64,000 nucleotides of DNA. It comes from Streptomyces sp. HUAS MG91 (GTDB lineage Bacteria; Actinomycetota; Actinomycetes; Streptomycetales; Streptomycetaceae). Below, in pieces: positions 22,614-28,663 of this stretch. The first letter of the stretch is position 1, and each line of letters starts with the position of its first letter. The position numbers and the translations under genes are program-made. The notes under the pieces are model-generated. The model did not search any database and was not told the origin of the DNA. It worked only from the letters and a program-made list of their open reading frames with translations. The DNA lies in the NCBI RefSeq assembly GCF_040529335.1, contig NZ_CP159534.1, forward strand, positions 4,650,001 through 4,714,000, written 5' to 3'.

Positions 22614-23561
22614 TTACGCCACGCGACGCTCCGCATACTCACTGATTTCGGTCATCGGCGGCCGCTCCTCGGTGTCCACGGAGTGCACCCGCGGCTCGAA
22701 GCCGTCCGCGCCCCGCTCGAACTGGGTGAGCACCGGCCGCACCAGATGCCCGCGTGCGAGCCGCAGCTGGGCCGTGCGGTATATCGCCGCCGCCATCCGG
22801 CCGAGCGCCTGCCCGTCCTGGTGCCGGTGCTTGCGGACGCCGACGTCGACCTGGGCGAGCGCGTCCAGGCCCACGGTGTGCAGCGCGTCGACCAGCAGGC
22901 CCAGCTCCACCCCGTAGCCGACCGGGAACGGCAGCCGTTCGAGGAGGCTCCTGCGGGCCGCGTACTCGCCGCCCAGCGGCTGGACGAACCCGGCCAGTTG
23001 CGGCCAGTGCAGATTGAGGACCGGGCGGGCCATCAGCTCGGTGACCCGGCCGCCCTGACCGGCGGCCTCGCCCAGCGGGCGGTCGTACATGGCCTTCACG
23101 AAGTCCACGTCCGGGTCGGTCAGCAGCGGGCCGACGATCCCCGAGACGAAGTCCGCCGAGAACTCCTTCAGGTCCGCGTCGACGAAGCAGACGATGTCAC
23201 CGGAAGTGACGAGCAGCGAACGCCACAGCACTTCACCCTTTCCGGGGCGGGCCGGGATCCGCGGCAGGATCGTGTCCCGGTGCTCGACGCGCGCCCCGGC
23301 CGCCGCGGCCACCTCGGAGGTGCGGTCCGTGGAGCCGGAGTCGACGACCACGACCTCGTCGACGAGCGGCACCGCCTCCGTCATCAGCTCGCGCCGGATC
23401 ACGGAGACGATCTCGCCGACCGTCTCCTCCTCGTTGAGCGCGGGCAGGACGACGCTCACCGTCCGGCCCGACGCCCGCTTCGCGGCGATGAGCTGGGGCA
23501 GCGTGCGGTCGGACACGGACCAGGAGCGCCGCCCCAGCCAGCTCTCGACTTCTTCCAGCAC
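22614..23561 (-). CDS. gpgS: Glucosyl-3-phosphoglycerate synthase (GT81)
   Basis: The 315-residue protein matches actinobacterial GpgS: 'TVSVVLPALNEEETVGEIVSVIRRE', 'EVVVVDSGSTDRTSEVAAAAGA', 'PARPGKGEVLWRSL', metal motif 'CFVDADLKEFSADFV', and acceptor-loop 'ARPVLNLHWPQLAGFVQPLGGEYAARR', 'PVGYGVELGLLVD', 'VRKHRHQDGQALGRMAAAI'. It transfers glucose from UDP/GDP-glucose to 3-phosphoglycerate. The product leads to glucosylglycerate, a compatible solute, or to methylglucose polysaccharides. The GTG at 23561 has GGAGG 8 bases upstream. It is divergent from metM. Confidence 0.9.
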   Translation of the reverse strand: MLEEVESWLGRRSWSVSDRTLPQLIAAKRASGRTVSVVLPALNEEETVGEIVSVIRRELMTEAVPLVDEVVVVDSGSTDRTSEVAAAAGARVEHRDTILPRIPARPGKGEVLWRSLLVTSGDIVCFVDADLKEFSADFVSGIVGPLLTDPDVDFVKAMYDRPLGEAAGQGGRVTELMARPVLNLHWPQLAGFVQPLGGEYAARRSLLERLPFPVGYGVELGLLVDALHTVGLDALAQVDVGVRKHRHQDGQALGRMAAAIYRTAQLRLARGHLVRPVLTQFERGADGFEPRVHSVDTEERPPMTEISEYAERRVA

Positions 23562-23710
23562 GTCCAGGGCCCTCCCGTATGTGATCCATCTCGCGGTTCG
23601 GACGACTATCTCAAGGGTCCACCCCTTCAGTTACAGTCTTGAACAGGGTCCGTGACCATCGCATGTCGGGGTCGGCGCGCCCGTACAACTCCATCCACAC
23701 AATCGAATAC

Positions 23711-23840
23711 CGCTCATCCAGAGGGGCAGAGGGACACGGCCCGTTGAAGCCCCGGCAACCCTCCCGCCGACCGACGAGGTCACGGTGGGGAAGGTGCCAA
23801 TTCCGTCTCGCGGCGAGATGCGTCGCGAGGAAGATGAGGA
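23711..23840 (+). promoter_or_regulatory. SAM-I (S-box) riboswitch upstream of metM
   Basis: The conserved SAM-I core is readable: 'ctcatccagaggggcagag', 'ggacacggcccgttgaag', 'ccccggcaaccctcc', later 'ggtgccaattcc'. The P1 stem closes with ctcatc (23713-23718) against gatgag (23833-23838). The 3' strand of P1 overlaps GAGGAG at 23836-23841, the purine-rich stretch before the metM ATG at 23859. SAM binding could therefore hide the ribosome site. An S-box here means the downstream genes respond to SAM, as expected for methionine rather than threonine synthesis. Confidence 0.9.
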
Positions 23841-23858
23841 GAAAGGGCCTCGCCTCTC

Positions 23859-25154
23859 ATGGCTGTACAGACTGTCGCCACCGGTACCACCGCCGCCGCC
23901 GCCGATCTCGGACCGGCTTCGGGCCTCTCCTGCCGCGAGTGCGGCGCCACCGTCCCGCTCGGCCCCGTCTTCGCCTGCGTCGAGTGTTTCGGGCCTCTGG
24001 AAGTCGCGTACGACCTGCCCGTCGGCGACCCCGAGGCGCTCCGCAAGCAGATCGAGGCCGGCCCCGCCAACATCTGGCGCTACGCCCCCCTCCTGCCCGT
24101 CCCGGCCGACGTCGCCGAGAAGCCGAACCTGAACCCCGGCTGGACCAAGCTCGTCCAGGCCGACAACCTCGCCCGCGAGCTCGGCGTCGAGCAGGGCAAG
24201 CTGTTCGTCAAGGACGACTCCGGCAACCCGACGCACTCCTTCAAGGACCGGGTCGTGGCCCAGGCCATCGAGGCCGCGCGGGCATTTGGTTTCACCACCC
24301 TTTCCTGCTCCTCGACGGGCAACCTGGCCGGCGCCGTCGGCGCCGCCGCCGCCCGCGCCGGTTTCCGCTCCTGCGTGTTCATCCCGCACGACCTGGAGCA
24401 GGGCAAGGTCGTCATGGCCGGTGTCTACGGCGGTGACCTCGTCGCCATCGAGGGCAACTACGACGACGTGAACCGTTTCTGCTCCGAGCTCATCGGCGAC
24501 CCGCTGGGCGAGGGCTGGGGCTTCGTCAACGTGAACCTGCGCCCGTACTACGGCGAGGGCTCCAAGACGCTCGCCTACGAGATCTGCGAGCAGCTCGGCT
24601 GGCGGCTCCCCGACCAGCTGGTCATCCCGATCGCGTCGGGCTCGCAGTTCACGAAGATCGACAAGGGCCTGAAGGAGCTGATCAAGCTCGGCCTCGTCGA
24701 GGACAAGCCCTACAAGCTCTTCGGCGCCCAGGCCGAGGGCTGCTCCCCGGTCTCGGTCGCGTACAAGGGCGGCCACGACGTGGTGCGGCCGCAGAAGCCG
24801 AACACGATCGCCAAGTCGCTGGCCATCGGCAACCCGGCCGACGGCCCGTACGTCCTCGACATCGCGCGCCGTACCGGCGGCGCCGTGGAGGACGTGAACG
24901 ACGAGCAGGTCGTCGACGCGATCAAGCTGCTCGCGCAGACCGAGGGGATCTTCGCCGAGACGGCGGGCGGGGTGACGGTGGGCGTCACCAAGAAGCTCAT
25001 CGAGGCCGGGCTGATCGACCCGTCGCTGACCACCGTCGTGCTGAACACCGGTGACGGCCTGAAGACGCTGGACGCCGTCGCGGAGTCCTCGCAGGCGACG
25101 GCGACCATTCGTCCGTCCCTGGAGGCGTTCCGGGACGCCGGTCTCGCGCACTGA
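23859..25154 (+). CDS. metM: MetM: threonine-synthase-like O-phosphohomoserine-dependent homocysteine synthase
   Basis: The 431-residue PLP enzyme looks like threonine synthase. It has the PLP lysine K129 in 'NPTHSFKDRVV', 'SCSSTGNLAGAVGAAAARAG', 'IASGSQFTKIDKGLKEL' and 'FAETAGGVTVGVTKKL'. A Cys4 ribbon lies at its N-terminus (C25, C28, C40, C43). Three points argue against a threonine role: the SAM riboswitch, the downstream sulfur carrier, and distance from hom/thrB. From memory of published Streptomyces work, this pair (MetM/MetO) converts O-phosphohomoserine plus carrier thiocarboxylate to homocysteine. Most databases would say thrC. The ATG at 23859 is clear. Confidence 0.8.
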   Translation: MAVQTVATGTTAAAADLGPASGLSCRECGATVPLGPVFACVECFGPLEVAYDLPVGDPEALRKQIEAGPANIWRYAPLLPVPADVAEKPNLNPGWTKLVQADNLARELGVEQGKLFVKDDSGNPTHSFKDRVVAQAIEAARAFGFTTLSCSSTGNLAGAVGAAAARAGFRSCVFIPHDLEQGKVVMAGVYGGDLVAIEGNYDDVNRFCSELIGDPLGEGWGFVNVNLRPYYGEGSKTLAYEICEQLGWRLPDQLVIPIASGSQFTKIDKGLKELIKLGLVEDKPYKLFGAQAEGCSPVSVAYKGGHDVVRPQKPNTIAKSLAIGNPADGPYVLDIARRTGGAVEDVNDEQVVDAIKLLAQTEGIFAETAGGVTVGVTKKLIEAGLIDPSLTTVVLNTGDGLKTLDAVAESSQATATIRPSLEAFRDAGLAH

Positions 25155-25189
25155 GCCATCCCACCCGCAGCAATCAGGAGTCACCCAGC

Positions 25190-25465
25190 ATGAGCGTCAA
25201 CGTCCGCATCCCCACCATCCTCCGCACCTACACCGGCGGTCGGGCCGAGGTCAGCGCCGAGGGCGCCACGCTCGCCGACGTCATCGCCGACCTGGAGAAG
25301 AACCACACCGGGATCGCCGCCCGCGTCCTCGACGACCAGGGCAAGCTGCGCCGGTTCGTCAACGTGTACGTGAACGACGACGACGTCCGCTTCGAGCAGG
25401 GCCTGGAGACCGCCACGCCCGACGGCGCCGGCGTCTCGATCATTCCTGCCGTCGCCGGCGGCTGA
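25190..25465 (+). CDS. metO: MetO: ubiquitin-like sulfur-carrier protein (MoaD/ThiS/CysO type)
   Basis: The 91-residue beta-grasp protein ends in the di-glycine tail '...VSIIPAVAGG'. It has 'VRIPTILRTYTGG', 'GATLADVIADLEKNHTGIAARVLDDQGKLRRFVNVYVNDDDVRF', like CysO of Mycobacterium. The terminal Gly is adenylated by a MoeZ-type enzyme and turned into a thiocarboxylate that donates sulfur. Lying 35 bp after metM behind a GGAG site, it is the expected sulfur donor for MetM. CysO-like carriers can also feed sulfur into natural products, so it may serve more than one enzyme. A terminator follows directly. Confidence 0.88.
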   Translation: MSVNVRIPTILRTYTGGRAEVSAEGATLADVIADLEKNHTGIAARVLDDQGKLRRFVNVYVNDDDVRFEQGLETATPDGAGVSIIPAVAGG

Positions 25466-25492
25466 CACCCCCGGTCACACCCTGAGTCACCC

Positions 25493-25531
25493 GAATTGCC
25501 CCCTCCGCGAGGAAAGCGGAGGGGGCAATTC
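25493..25531. terminator. Strong terminator after metO
   Basis: A perfect 16-bp stem with a 7-base loop (gaattgccccctccgc ... gcggagggggcaattc) lies 27 bp after the metO stop. It ends the metM-metO transcript. Confidence 0.9.
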
Positions 25532-25896
25532 TGCATGGTTGAGCGCGGTACAGTTGGGGAAGCTGGTTCGATTCCGAACGTGGTGCATGACGGGCGCATA
25601 TGAGTTCACGCCCGAAGCGCGACAAGAAGCAGCCAATGTGTGCCGCCCATTCGGGCCTTTTATGGCTTTTGTGTAGCCCGACTTGCCCTGAGATACCTCC
25701 AGTTGGCCCGTTTTCCGCGATCACGCGTGCCCAGAATTCTCGTCCGACTGACCTGTTGCAGACGGCAGTTGGGCAGATACATTCAGCCGCGGTCGACGCG
25801 TTCCGGCGCACACCCCCAAACCCTTTGGGGCGTGAGGTCTGACCCGGGTCCGCGAAGTGCGGACTCGCGCAAGGGCCAGTAATAGGGGAGTTAGGC
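25532..25896 (+). other. 365-bp non-coding leader region of the cold-shock gene
   Basis: No convincing gene is present; short open frames here have poor codon usage. The stretch is less GC-rich than its surroundings. It contains a hairpin gtccgc-gaagt-gcggac at 25848-25864, which ends 32 bp before the csp ATG, and a cccc-aaaccctt-tgggg hairpin near 25813. A long structured leader is typical of cold-shock mRNAs and may control translation with temperature. Confidence 0.5.
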
Positions 25897-28133: not shown

Positions 28134-28397
28134 TCAGCGTTCGTAGTGGTACCGGCAGGCCGCGACGCGGATCTCGTCCTGCTCGACCTTGTAGATCAGT
28201 CGGTGCTCATCGGTGATGCGACGGGACCAGTAGCCGTGGAAGCCGTGCCTCAGGGGTTCGGGCTTGCCGATGCCTTCGTCGGGGCCGTTGCGGGCGATGT
28301 CCTGGAGGAGGGTGTTGATGCGCTTCAGTATCTTGCGGTCCTGCTCCTGCCACCGGACGTAGTCGGCCCAGGCCTTCTCCTGCCAGACGAGCTTCAA
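28134..28397 (-). CDS. yoeB: YoeB-type toxin, ribosome-dependent mRNA interferase
   Basis: The 87-residue RelE-superfamily toxin matches YoeB along its length: 'KLVWQEKAWADYVRWQEQDRKILKRINTLL', 'GKPEPLRHGFHGYWSRRITDEHRLIYKV' and the C-terminal catalytic 'CRYHYER'. The key Glu (in GKPEPL), Arg (in WSRRIT), His and Tyr (RYHY) are all present, so it should be active. It starts at TTG 28397, which overlaps the antitoxin stop as TTGA, so toxin translation depends on the antitoxin. Confidence 0.93.
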   Translation of the reverse strand: MKLVWQEKAWADYVRWQEQDRKILKRINTLLQDIARNGPDEGIGKPEPLRHGFHGYWSRRITDEHRLIYKVEQDEIRVAACRYHYER

Positions 28398-28645
28398 TCG
28401 AGCAGCTCCCTGACCGTACCGCCGCCGTTCTCCAGGTCTTCGATGGCGGCCAGGATGCGCCGCGCGTTCTCCGGGCTGCGCAGCAGGTACGCCGTCTCCT
28501 TGAGGGACTCGTACTCGTCGAGCGCCACGATCACGACCGGCTCGCGGCCCGCGCGGGTCACTATGACTTCCTCGCGGTCGTCGACGACCGCGTTGAGCGT
28601 CTCCGCGTACTTCGCCCGGGACTCCGTGTAGGTCATGGTGCGCAT
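28394..28645 (-). CDS. yefM: YefM-type antitoxin (Phd/YefM family)
   Basis: The 83-residue antitoxin starts 'MRTMTYTESRAKYAETLNAVVDDREEVIVTRAG' (DNA-binding Phd/YefM fold) and ends with a toxin-binding helix 'NARRILAAIEDLENGGGTVRELLD'. The ATG at 28645 has GGAGG 6 bases upstream; an upstream in-frame start at 28660 is less likely. It neutralises YoeB and represses the operon through GTAC-rich sites just upstream. Confidence 0.92.
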   Translation of the reverse strand: MRTMTYTESRAKYAETLNAVVDDREEVIVTRAGREPVVIVALDEYESLKETAYLLRSPENARRILAAIEDLENGGGTVRELLD

Positions 28646-28663
28646 CGTGGCCTCCTCCACAGC

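Follow-up and report, generated by a model that had tools for sequence, protein, structure and literature searches.

Architecture of the riboswitch-metM-metO unit

In the analysed window, a stretch of 64,000 nucleotides that corresponds to C1:4650001-4714000 of an 8.6 Mb Streptomyces genome, a SAM riboswitch is followed by a gene for a PLP enzyme, a gene for a sulfur carrier and an inverted repeat (Table 1). The riboswitch and the two genes are co-directional and contiguous, with gaps of 18 nt between the riboswitch end and metM and of 35 nt between metM and metO. The upstream neighbour, a glucosyl-3-phosphoglycerate synthase gene (22614-23561), is located on the opposite strand, and the downstream neighbours encode a cold-shock-like protein and GroEL. 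A YoeB-type toxin, scoring above its curated cut-off, and a YefM-like antitoxin, scoring below its cut-off, are encoded at 28134-28660 of the window on the minus strand.

Table 1. Features of the metM-metO locus, given in window positions
Feature	Position	Strand	Basis
SAM-I (S-box) riboswitch aptamer	23711-23840	+	RF00162 match; no second copy found in the genome
Proposed expression platform (P1 3' arm, purine-rich ribosome-binding stretch, CCTC element; abuts the start codon)	23833-23858	+	Conservation and ViennaRNA pairing
metM: threonine-synthase-superfamily PLP enzyme, predicted homocysteine synthase, 431 aa	23859-25154	+	ORF, profiles, 90% identity to S. noursei locus
metO: ThiS/MoaD/CysO-type sulfur carrier, 91 aa, ends Gly-Gly, no tail to trim	25190-25465	+	ORF, Pfam ThiS, 90% identity to S. 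noursei locus
16-bp perfect inverted repeat, probable terminator without U-tract	25493-25531	+	Repeat search, folding

The sequence-only reading of this DNA had proposed a SAM-I riboswitch, a threonine-synthase-fold PLP enzyme with an N-terminal Cys4 motif and a MoaD/CysO-like carrier ending in Gly-Gly, and all of them were recovered. The riboswitch matched RF00162 with 81.9 bits (gathering score 44.4; E 9.3e-18), and model positions 1-108 of 108 were covered. MetM matched Pfam PALP with 214.5 bits and the NCBIfam thrC model TIGR00260 with 265.9 bits, which is above the cut-off of 167.1; the hom-linked ThrC of the genome scored 327.2 with the latter model. The cysteine synthase model TIGR01136 (cysKM) yielded a score of 31.4 and did not reach its cut-off of 344.15. 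The N-terminal cysteines are C25, C28, C40 and C43, and no Pfam zinc-ribbon model reached its cut-off over this motif. It had also been anticipated that an automatic annotation as thrC would hide the function of the gene. Indeed, the protein passes TIGR00260, and all source names present among the 120 matches listed read threonine synthase, while some matches were nameless.

MetO matched Pfam ThiS with 62.3 bits and terminates with IIPAVAGG. Its nearest solved relative is PDB 3dwg chain C (E 5.1e-30), which is labelled 9.5 kDa culture filtrate antigen and which we take to be CysO of M. tuberculosis. Besides metO, the genome contains three further genes of the ThiS family. One encodes a CysO-like carrier and adjoins CysM and the only Prok-JAB (Mec-like) match of the genome, one is located between a ThiO-looking and a ThiG-looking gene (judged by eye), and the remaining one is a weaker, MoaD-like match. 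The CysO-like carrier (L019:5172-5450, minus strand) ends with AVAGGMR, and thus it should need trimming, while MetO should not.

The unit had furthermore been described as closed by a 16-bp terminator. An inverted repeat of this length does exist (arms 25493-25508 and 25516-25531, 7-nt loop), and its fold of -35.3 kcal/mol was not equalled by any of 200 shuffled sequences (z -5.66). It lies outside the segment 23711..25465 that had been assigned to the unit, and it is not followed by a T-run, so that a consensus terminator scan does not call it. With one fixed pattern, 45 of the best 80 named Streptomyces loci (from at least 581 relatives) showed a like inverted repeat after metM.

Conservation of the locus and proposed control by the riboswitch

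All 151 Streptomyces genomes searched, which comprise the one under study and 150 others, contain MetM, with a best E of 4.5e-220 or better and with identities of 77-100% among the matches listed. The SAM-I riboswitch was detected in 150 of these genomes; G093, G098 and G104 each have two copies. In the sole genome without a riboswitch match (G070), metM sits right at the beginning of its contig (C299:6-1292). The closest protein relatives are from Streptomyces, and the nearest of the best 80 named loci is that of S. longispororuber, with a MetM identity of 96%. Throughout these best 80 of at least 581 relatives metO follows directly 3' of metM (80/80), and an S-box core was found by pattern within 400 nt 5' of metM (80/80). 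The carrier ends with Gly-Gly in 49 and with Gly-Gly-Cys in 31 of these best 80 loci. The additional Cys at the C-terminus would need to be removed ahead of thiocarboxylation unless it has a separate role.

The second riboswitch copy of G093 (G093:C1:7659388-7659529; L059:7389-7530, minus strand) lies about 200 nt before an ORF for a regulator and a serine/threonine dehydratase-like gene. The regulator is presumably IclR-like, although no model scored over its cut-off.

To cover the phylum, 296 genomes of Actinomycetota were sampled, and MetM was found at E 1e-80 or better in 109 of them. Twelve of these are Streptomyces, two more belong to its class, and 40 non-Streptomyces metM loci were picked by hand from the 97 genomes outside the genus. 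A riboswitch 5' of metM on the same strand was found in 32 of the 40 loci (14/20 and 18/20), at distances of -19 to 261 nt from the aligned section of metM, and an adjacent carrier gene was likewise present in 32 of the 40. Among the eight loci without an adjacent carrier and the eight without a riboswitch, L090 (carrier) and L096 (riboswitch) are cut by contig ends, and in each of the eight cases with no carrier gene beside metM the genome has a member of this carrier family elsewhere. In one of the sampled loci (L092 in G311), which has metM and the riboswitch and no adjacent carrier, a large downstream ORF has an end that resembles a CysH reductase by eye. A separate ThrC, 52-70% identical to the ThrC of the genome under study, was found in 39 of the 40 genomes. 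In the other one (G383, locus L061; 99% complete), which has metM-metO and the riboswitch, a separate ThrC was not found at E 1e-20.

The 3' arm of the P1 helix, GATGAG, is located at 23833-23838, and 20 nt separate its end from the ATG of metM. In every one of the best 80 named Streptomyces loci (from at least 581 relatives), the next ATG comes 17-21 nt after GATGAG. The pattern of the expression platform was found in 26 of 30 Streptomyces loci, of which the exact core pattern missed four, and in all of the best 80 named loci, while the second CC-rich element 5' of the ATG differs between Streptomyces species. Calculations with ViennaRNA yielded -79.2 kcal/mol with P1 formed, which equals the free fold, and -75.4 kcal/mol with the P1 5' arm blocked. 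With P1 formed, the purine-rich stretch ahead of the ATG is predicted to be mostly paired (three A are free), and it is predicted to be partly free when P1 is absent. The start-codon G of metM was paired with and without P1, and the model of the switch is therefore rough.

A consensus scan of 23560-25700 yielded neither a terminator-like site nor a sigma-70-type promoter. A terminator does not fit into the 17-21 nt between P1 and the start codon, and the control of metM is therefore probably translational. Transcription attenuation was considered and rejected, because the spacing was found in 80/80 of the best named loci and because a terminator-like site was missing from the scanned region.

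Only one copy of the SAM-I riboswitch was found in the 8.6 Mb genome, ahead of metM. A role of the SAM riboswitch as the general methionine regulator of the strain is therefore unsupported.

Separation of MetM from the threonine synthases

The sequence-only reading had suggested a comparison with the thrC of a hom-thrB operon elsewhere in the genome. A run of lysA-hom-thrC-thrB is indeed present, and its ThrC has a length of 355 aa, is devoid of the N-terminal ribbon and is 38% identical to MetM. The gene metM is not found in a hom-thrB context, and that neighbourhood holds the separate thrC.

A tree with 78 rows was constructed, which included 47 MetM sequences (the window, L060-L099 and six further Streptomyces loci), 30 ThrC sequences (that of this genome and 29 selected for their similarity to it) and a third ThrC-like paralog of the genome. 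Neither the tree nor the residue counts include the locus L218, which contains an in-frame stop. In this quick search MetM and ThrC were placed on opposite sides of one branch with an SH-aLRT of 99, showing that they form separate clades. The third ThrC-like PLP protein (372 aa; C1:5418957-5420042; L018:4946-6064, minus strand) scored under all five curated threonine synthase cut-offs shown; it forms a very long branch, and its placement in the tree was not trusted.

The residues of the two clades were compared at selected positions. The PLP lysine K129, assigned by the SFKDR motif, and the Asn of the S-T-G-N loop are present in 47/47 MetM and 30/30 ThrC sequences. The residues T88, R160 and N188 of the T. 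thermophilus threonine synthase, which we take to be the contacts to the substrate phosphate, have the equivalents T, R and N in all 30 ThrC sequences. In contrast, MetM has L in 47/47, Y in 47/47 and S in 46/47 sequences (G in one) at these positions, represented by L156, Y231 and S260 in the protein under study. In addition, N157 (T. thermophilus numbering) is N in 30/30 ThrC and R in 47/47 MetM sequences (R228 here). The T. thermophilus numbering was taken from an alignment with 1uim (the numbering of this genome's ThrC minus 4), and S155 did not serve as a marker, as its position differs between the HMMER and the MAFFT alignment.

As a tentative proposal, which we regard as plausible yet somewhat doubtful, MetM might have arisen from a threonine synthase via a rebuilt phosphate pocket, in which T88, R160 and N188 were replaced by Leu, Tyr and Ser and the new Arg R228 was gained. 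In threonine synthase, these three residues would hold the phosphate so that it activates water. In MetM, after the phosphate has left, a protein-bound thiocarboxylate would take its place at C-gamma. If this is true, homocysteine synthases could be told apart by a handful of residues among the many genes annotated as threonine synthase. The comparison of MetM and ThrC provides these residues as markers for a re-annotation.

The four cysteines C25, C28, C40 and C43 are present in 46 of 47 MetM sequences, with one gap, and in 0 of 30 ThrC sequences. The lone gap is most likely due to L096, which matches only from MetM residue 114. The ribbon had been highlighted as worth attention, and it does divide the two groups, but homocysteine synthesis is not proven by it. 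The view that it is the key to homocysteine synthesis was unsupported, because three of these cysteines also occur, at matching alignment positions, in the third ThrC-like paralog and because the NCBIfam 'threonine synthase' model PRK08197 aligns to MetM from residue 21 onwards, under its cut-off. Similar Cys ribbons exist in other enzymes annotated as threonine synthase.

Proposed function and comparison with known systems

Taken together, it is well supported that the riboswitch, metM and metO form the Streptomyces metM-metO transcription unit, an ortholog of the published system of the same genus. The sequence-only reading had pointed to a published Streptomyces pathway in which MetM uses O-phosphohomoserine and the thiocarboxylate of MetO for homocysteine synthesis, and this pathway is in print. 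A later article states that the homocysteine synthase MetM was identified in Streptomyces and has homologs in cyanobacteria (Hasebe, Adachi, Maruyama, Hamano 2024, AEM 90:e01247-24, as cited in PMC12172450), that MetM prevents methionine auxotrophy in S. albulus, and that a SAM riboswitch precedes metM in S. albulus (PMC12172450). In the NCBI taxonomy the name S. albulus leads to S. noursei, and in comparison with the S. noursei locus L138 the identities were 90% over 430 residues for MetM and 90.1% over 91 residues for MetO, with the same S-box leader. The following features of the pathway are found here: a ThrC-like ortholog, an adjacent Gly-Gly carrier, an upstream SAM riboswitch, and a supply by hom and thrB together with a separate ThrC. 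In the work of Hasebe and coworkers from 2024 the MetO thiocarboxylate is reportedly the sulfur donor, and the pathway is said to be highly conserved in Streptomyces.

With the reaction adopted from the published work on S. albulus, and on the basis of the anatomy, the orthology, the conservation and the separation from ThrC, it is very probable that metM and metO encode a SAM-controlled homocysteine synthase pair that takes O-phosphohomoserine. At low SAM the leader would let metM be translated. MetM would bind O-phosphohomoserine, supplied by Hom and ThrB, which are encoded elsewhere in the genome, and would eliminate the phosphate through PLP. Sulfur from the thiocarboxylated C-terminal glycine of MetO would then be added at C-gamma, which would lead to homocysteine and bypass the activation by MetA/MetX. 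At high SAM the P1 helix would form, the ribosome-binding region would be hidden, and phosphohomoserine would be left to the separate ThrC. A gene that is annotated as threonine synthase throughout a genus would thus, with high likelihood, code for a homocysteine synthase under SAM control. Many Streptomyces antibiotics draw on methionine and SAM.

An explanation that overlaps with this one and extends it is a dual enzyme, which would act as a homocysteine synthase with the MetO thiocarboxylate and as a threonine synthase without it. According to PMC12172450, a Microcystis homolog with 51.6% identity to S. albulus MetM, which lies beside a metO-like gene and is described there as having no SAM riboswitch, is a threonine synthase and deaminase in vitro and apparently not fully a MetM in that cell; a carrier-family gene of Microcystis resembles S. 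albulus metO (47.25%). The function may therefore not carry over to distant homologs. The genome G383, for which a separate ThrC was not found, would fit a dual role there. However, the positions that we take to be the phosphate contacts of ThrC are replaced in 47/47 MetM sequences, and the genome under study has a dedicated ThrC, so that a dual enzyme is rather unlikely.

Very unlikely is the possibility that MetO works in a different sulfur pathway (for cysteine, molybdopterin, thiamine or 2-thiosugars), with the enzyme alone acting in methionine synthesis and using free sulfide. MetO is indeed close to the CysO type, and eight of the 40 non-Streptomyces metM loci do not have an adjacent carrier; yet three other ThiS-family genes (CysM/Prok-JAB-linked, ThiO/ThiG-like-linked and MoaD-like) are present in the genome, and metM and metO are adjacent in all of the best 80 named loci. 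That metM is a second threonine synthase, as annotated, and stands behind a SAM riboswitch by chance is hardly credible, in spite of the score above the curated TIGR00260 cut-off, the uniform source names present among the 120 matches listed and the in vitro threonine synthase activity that PMC12172450 reports for the cyanobacterial homolog, because a separate ThrC exists here in the hom-thrB context and in 39 of the 40 non-Streptomyces metM genomes, because MetM forms a separate clade with changed positions, and because the upstream SAM signal and the downstream sulfur carrier are kept across the genus.

The genome does not depend on metM-metO alone. A metX gene adjoins metY (C1:8362228-8364644; L023:5229-7867, minus strand) near an IS481-type transposase gene on the chromosome arm, about 90 kb from the contig end. 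The MetY model scored 825.5, with a cut-off of 703, whereas the MetX model scored 441.5 bits, under its cut-off of 500, as did the matches in nine control genomes. As only one S-box was found in the genome, metX-metY is seemingly no S-box unit here. Due to the presence of metX-metY, a deletion of metM-metO alone may not cause methionine auxotrophy. MetX was found at E 1e-60 or better in 43 of the 151 Streptomyces genomes, including this one. This patchy distribution, in contrast to that of metM (151/151), suggests that the ThrC-like route is older than metX in Streptomyces.

The pair was compared with several known systems. MetM and ThrC share the superfamily, the PLP lysine in SFKDR and the substrate O-phosphohomoserine, the latter for MetM according to the published S. 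albulus work. They differ in that MetM is only 38% identical, has the extra Cys4 ribbon and the changed positions, and stands in another neighbourhood and under another control. CysM/CysO/Mec of M. tuberculosis is a cysteine synthesis system, and it resembles MetM-MetO in that its PLP enzyme shares the Pfam family of MetM and its carrier partner belongs to the family of MetO, for which 3dwg chain C was the nearest structure. However, such a set is encoded elsewhere in this genome, its CysO ends with GGMR and MetO with GG, and the MetM score with the cysKM model was 31.4, with 344.15 as cut-off. For HcyS of Wolinella succinogenes it was reportedly found by Krishnamoorthy and Begley in 2011 that a protein thiocarboxylate feeds sulfur into homocysteine, with a sulfhydrylase of the MetY type and O-acetylhomoserine. 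Both routes would thus use the sulfur of a protein thiocarboxylate for homocysteine, but the enzyme is said to be of the MetY type there and is of the ThrC type here. The closest system is MetM/MetO of S. albulus, with which the locus shares the riboswitch, the ThrC-like enzyme, the carrier, the gene order and the genus, and about 90% identity to a locus under the name S. noursei, which is not the S. albulus record itself. The differences are the species and the additional metX-metY genes of this genome. The biology of MetM-MetO is already published, and the present analysis adds a genus-wide test, residue markers, a likely translational expression platform and the warning that metX-metY is present as well.
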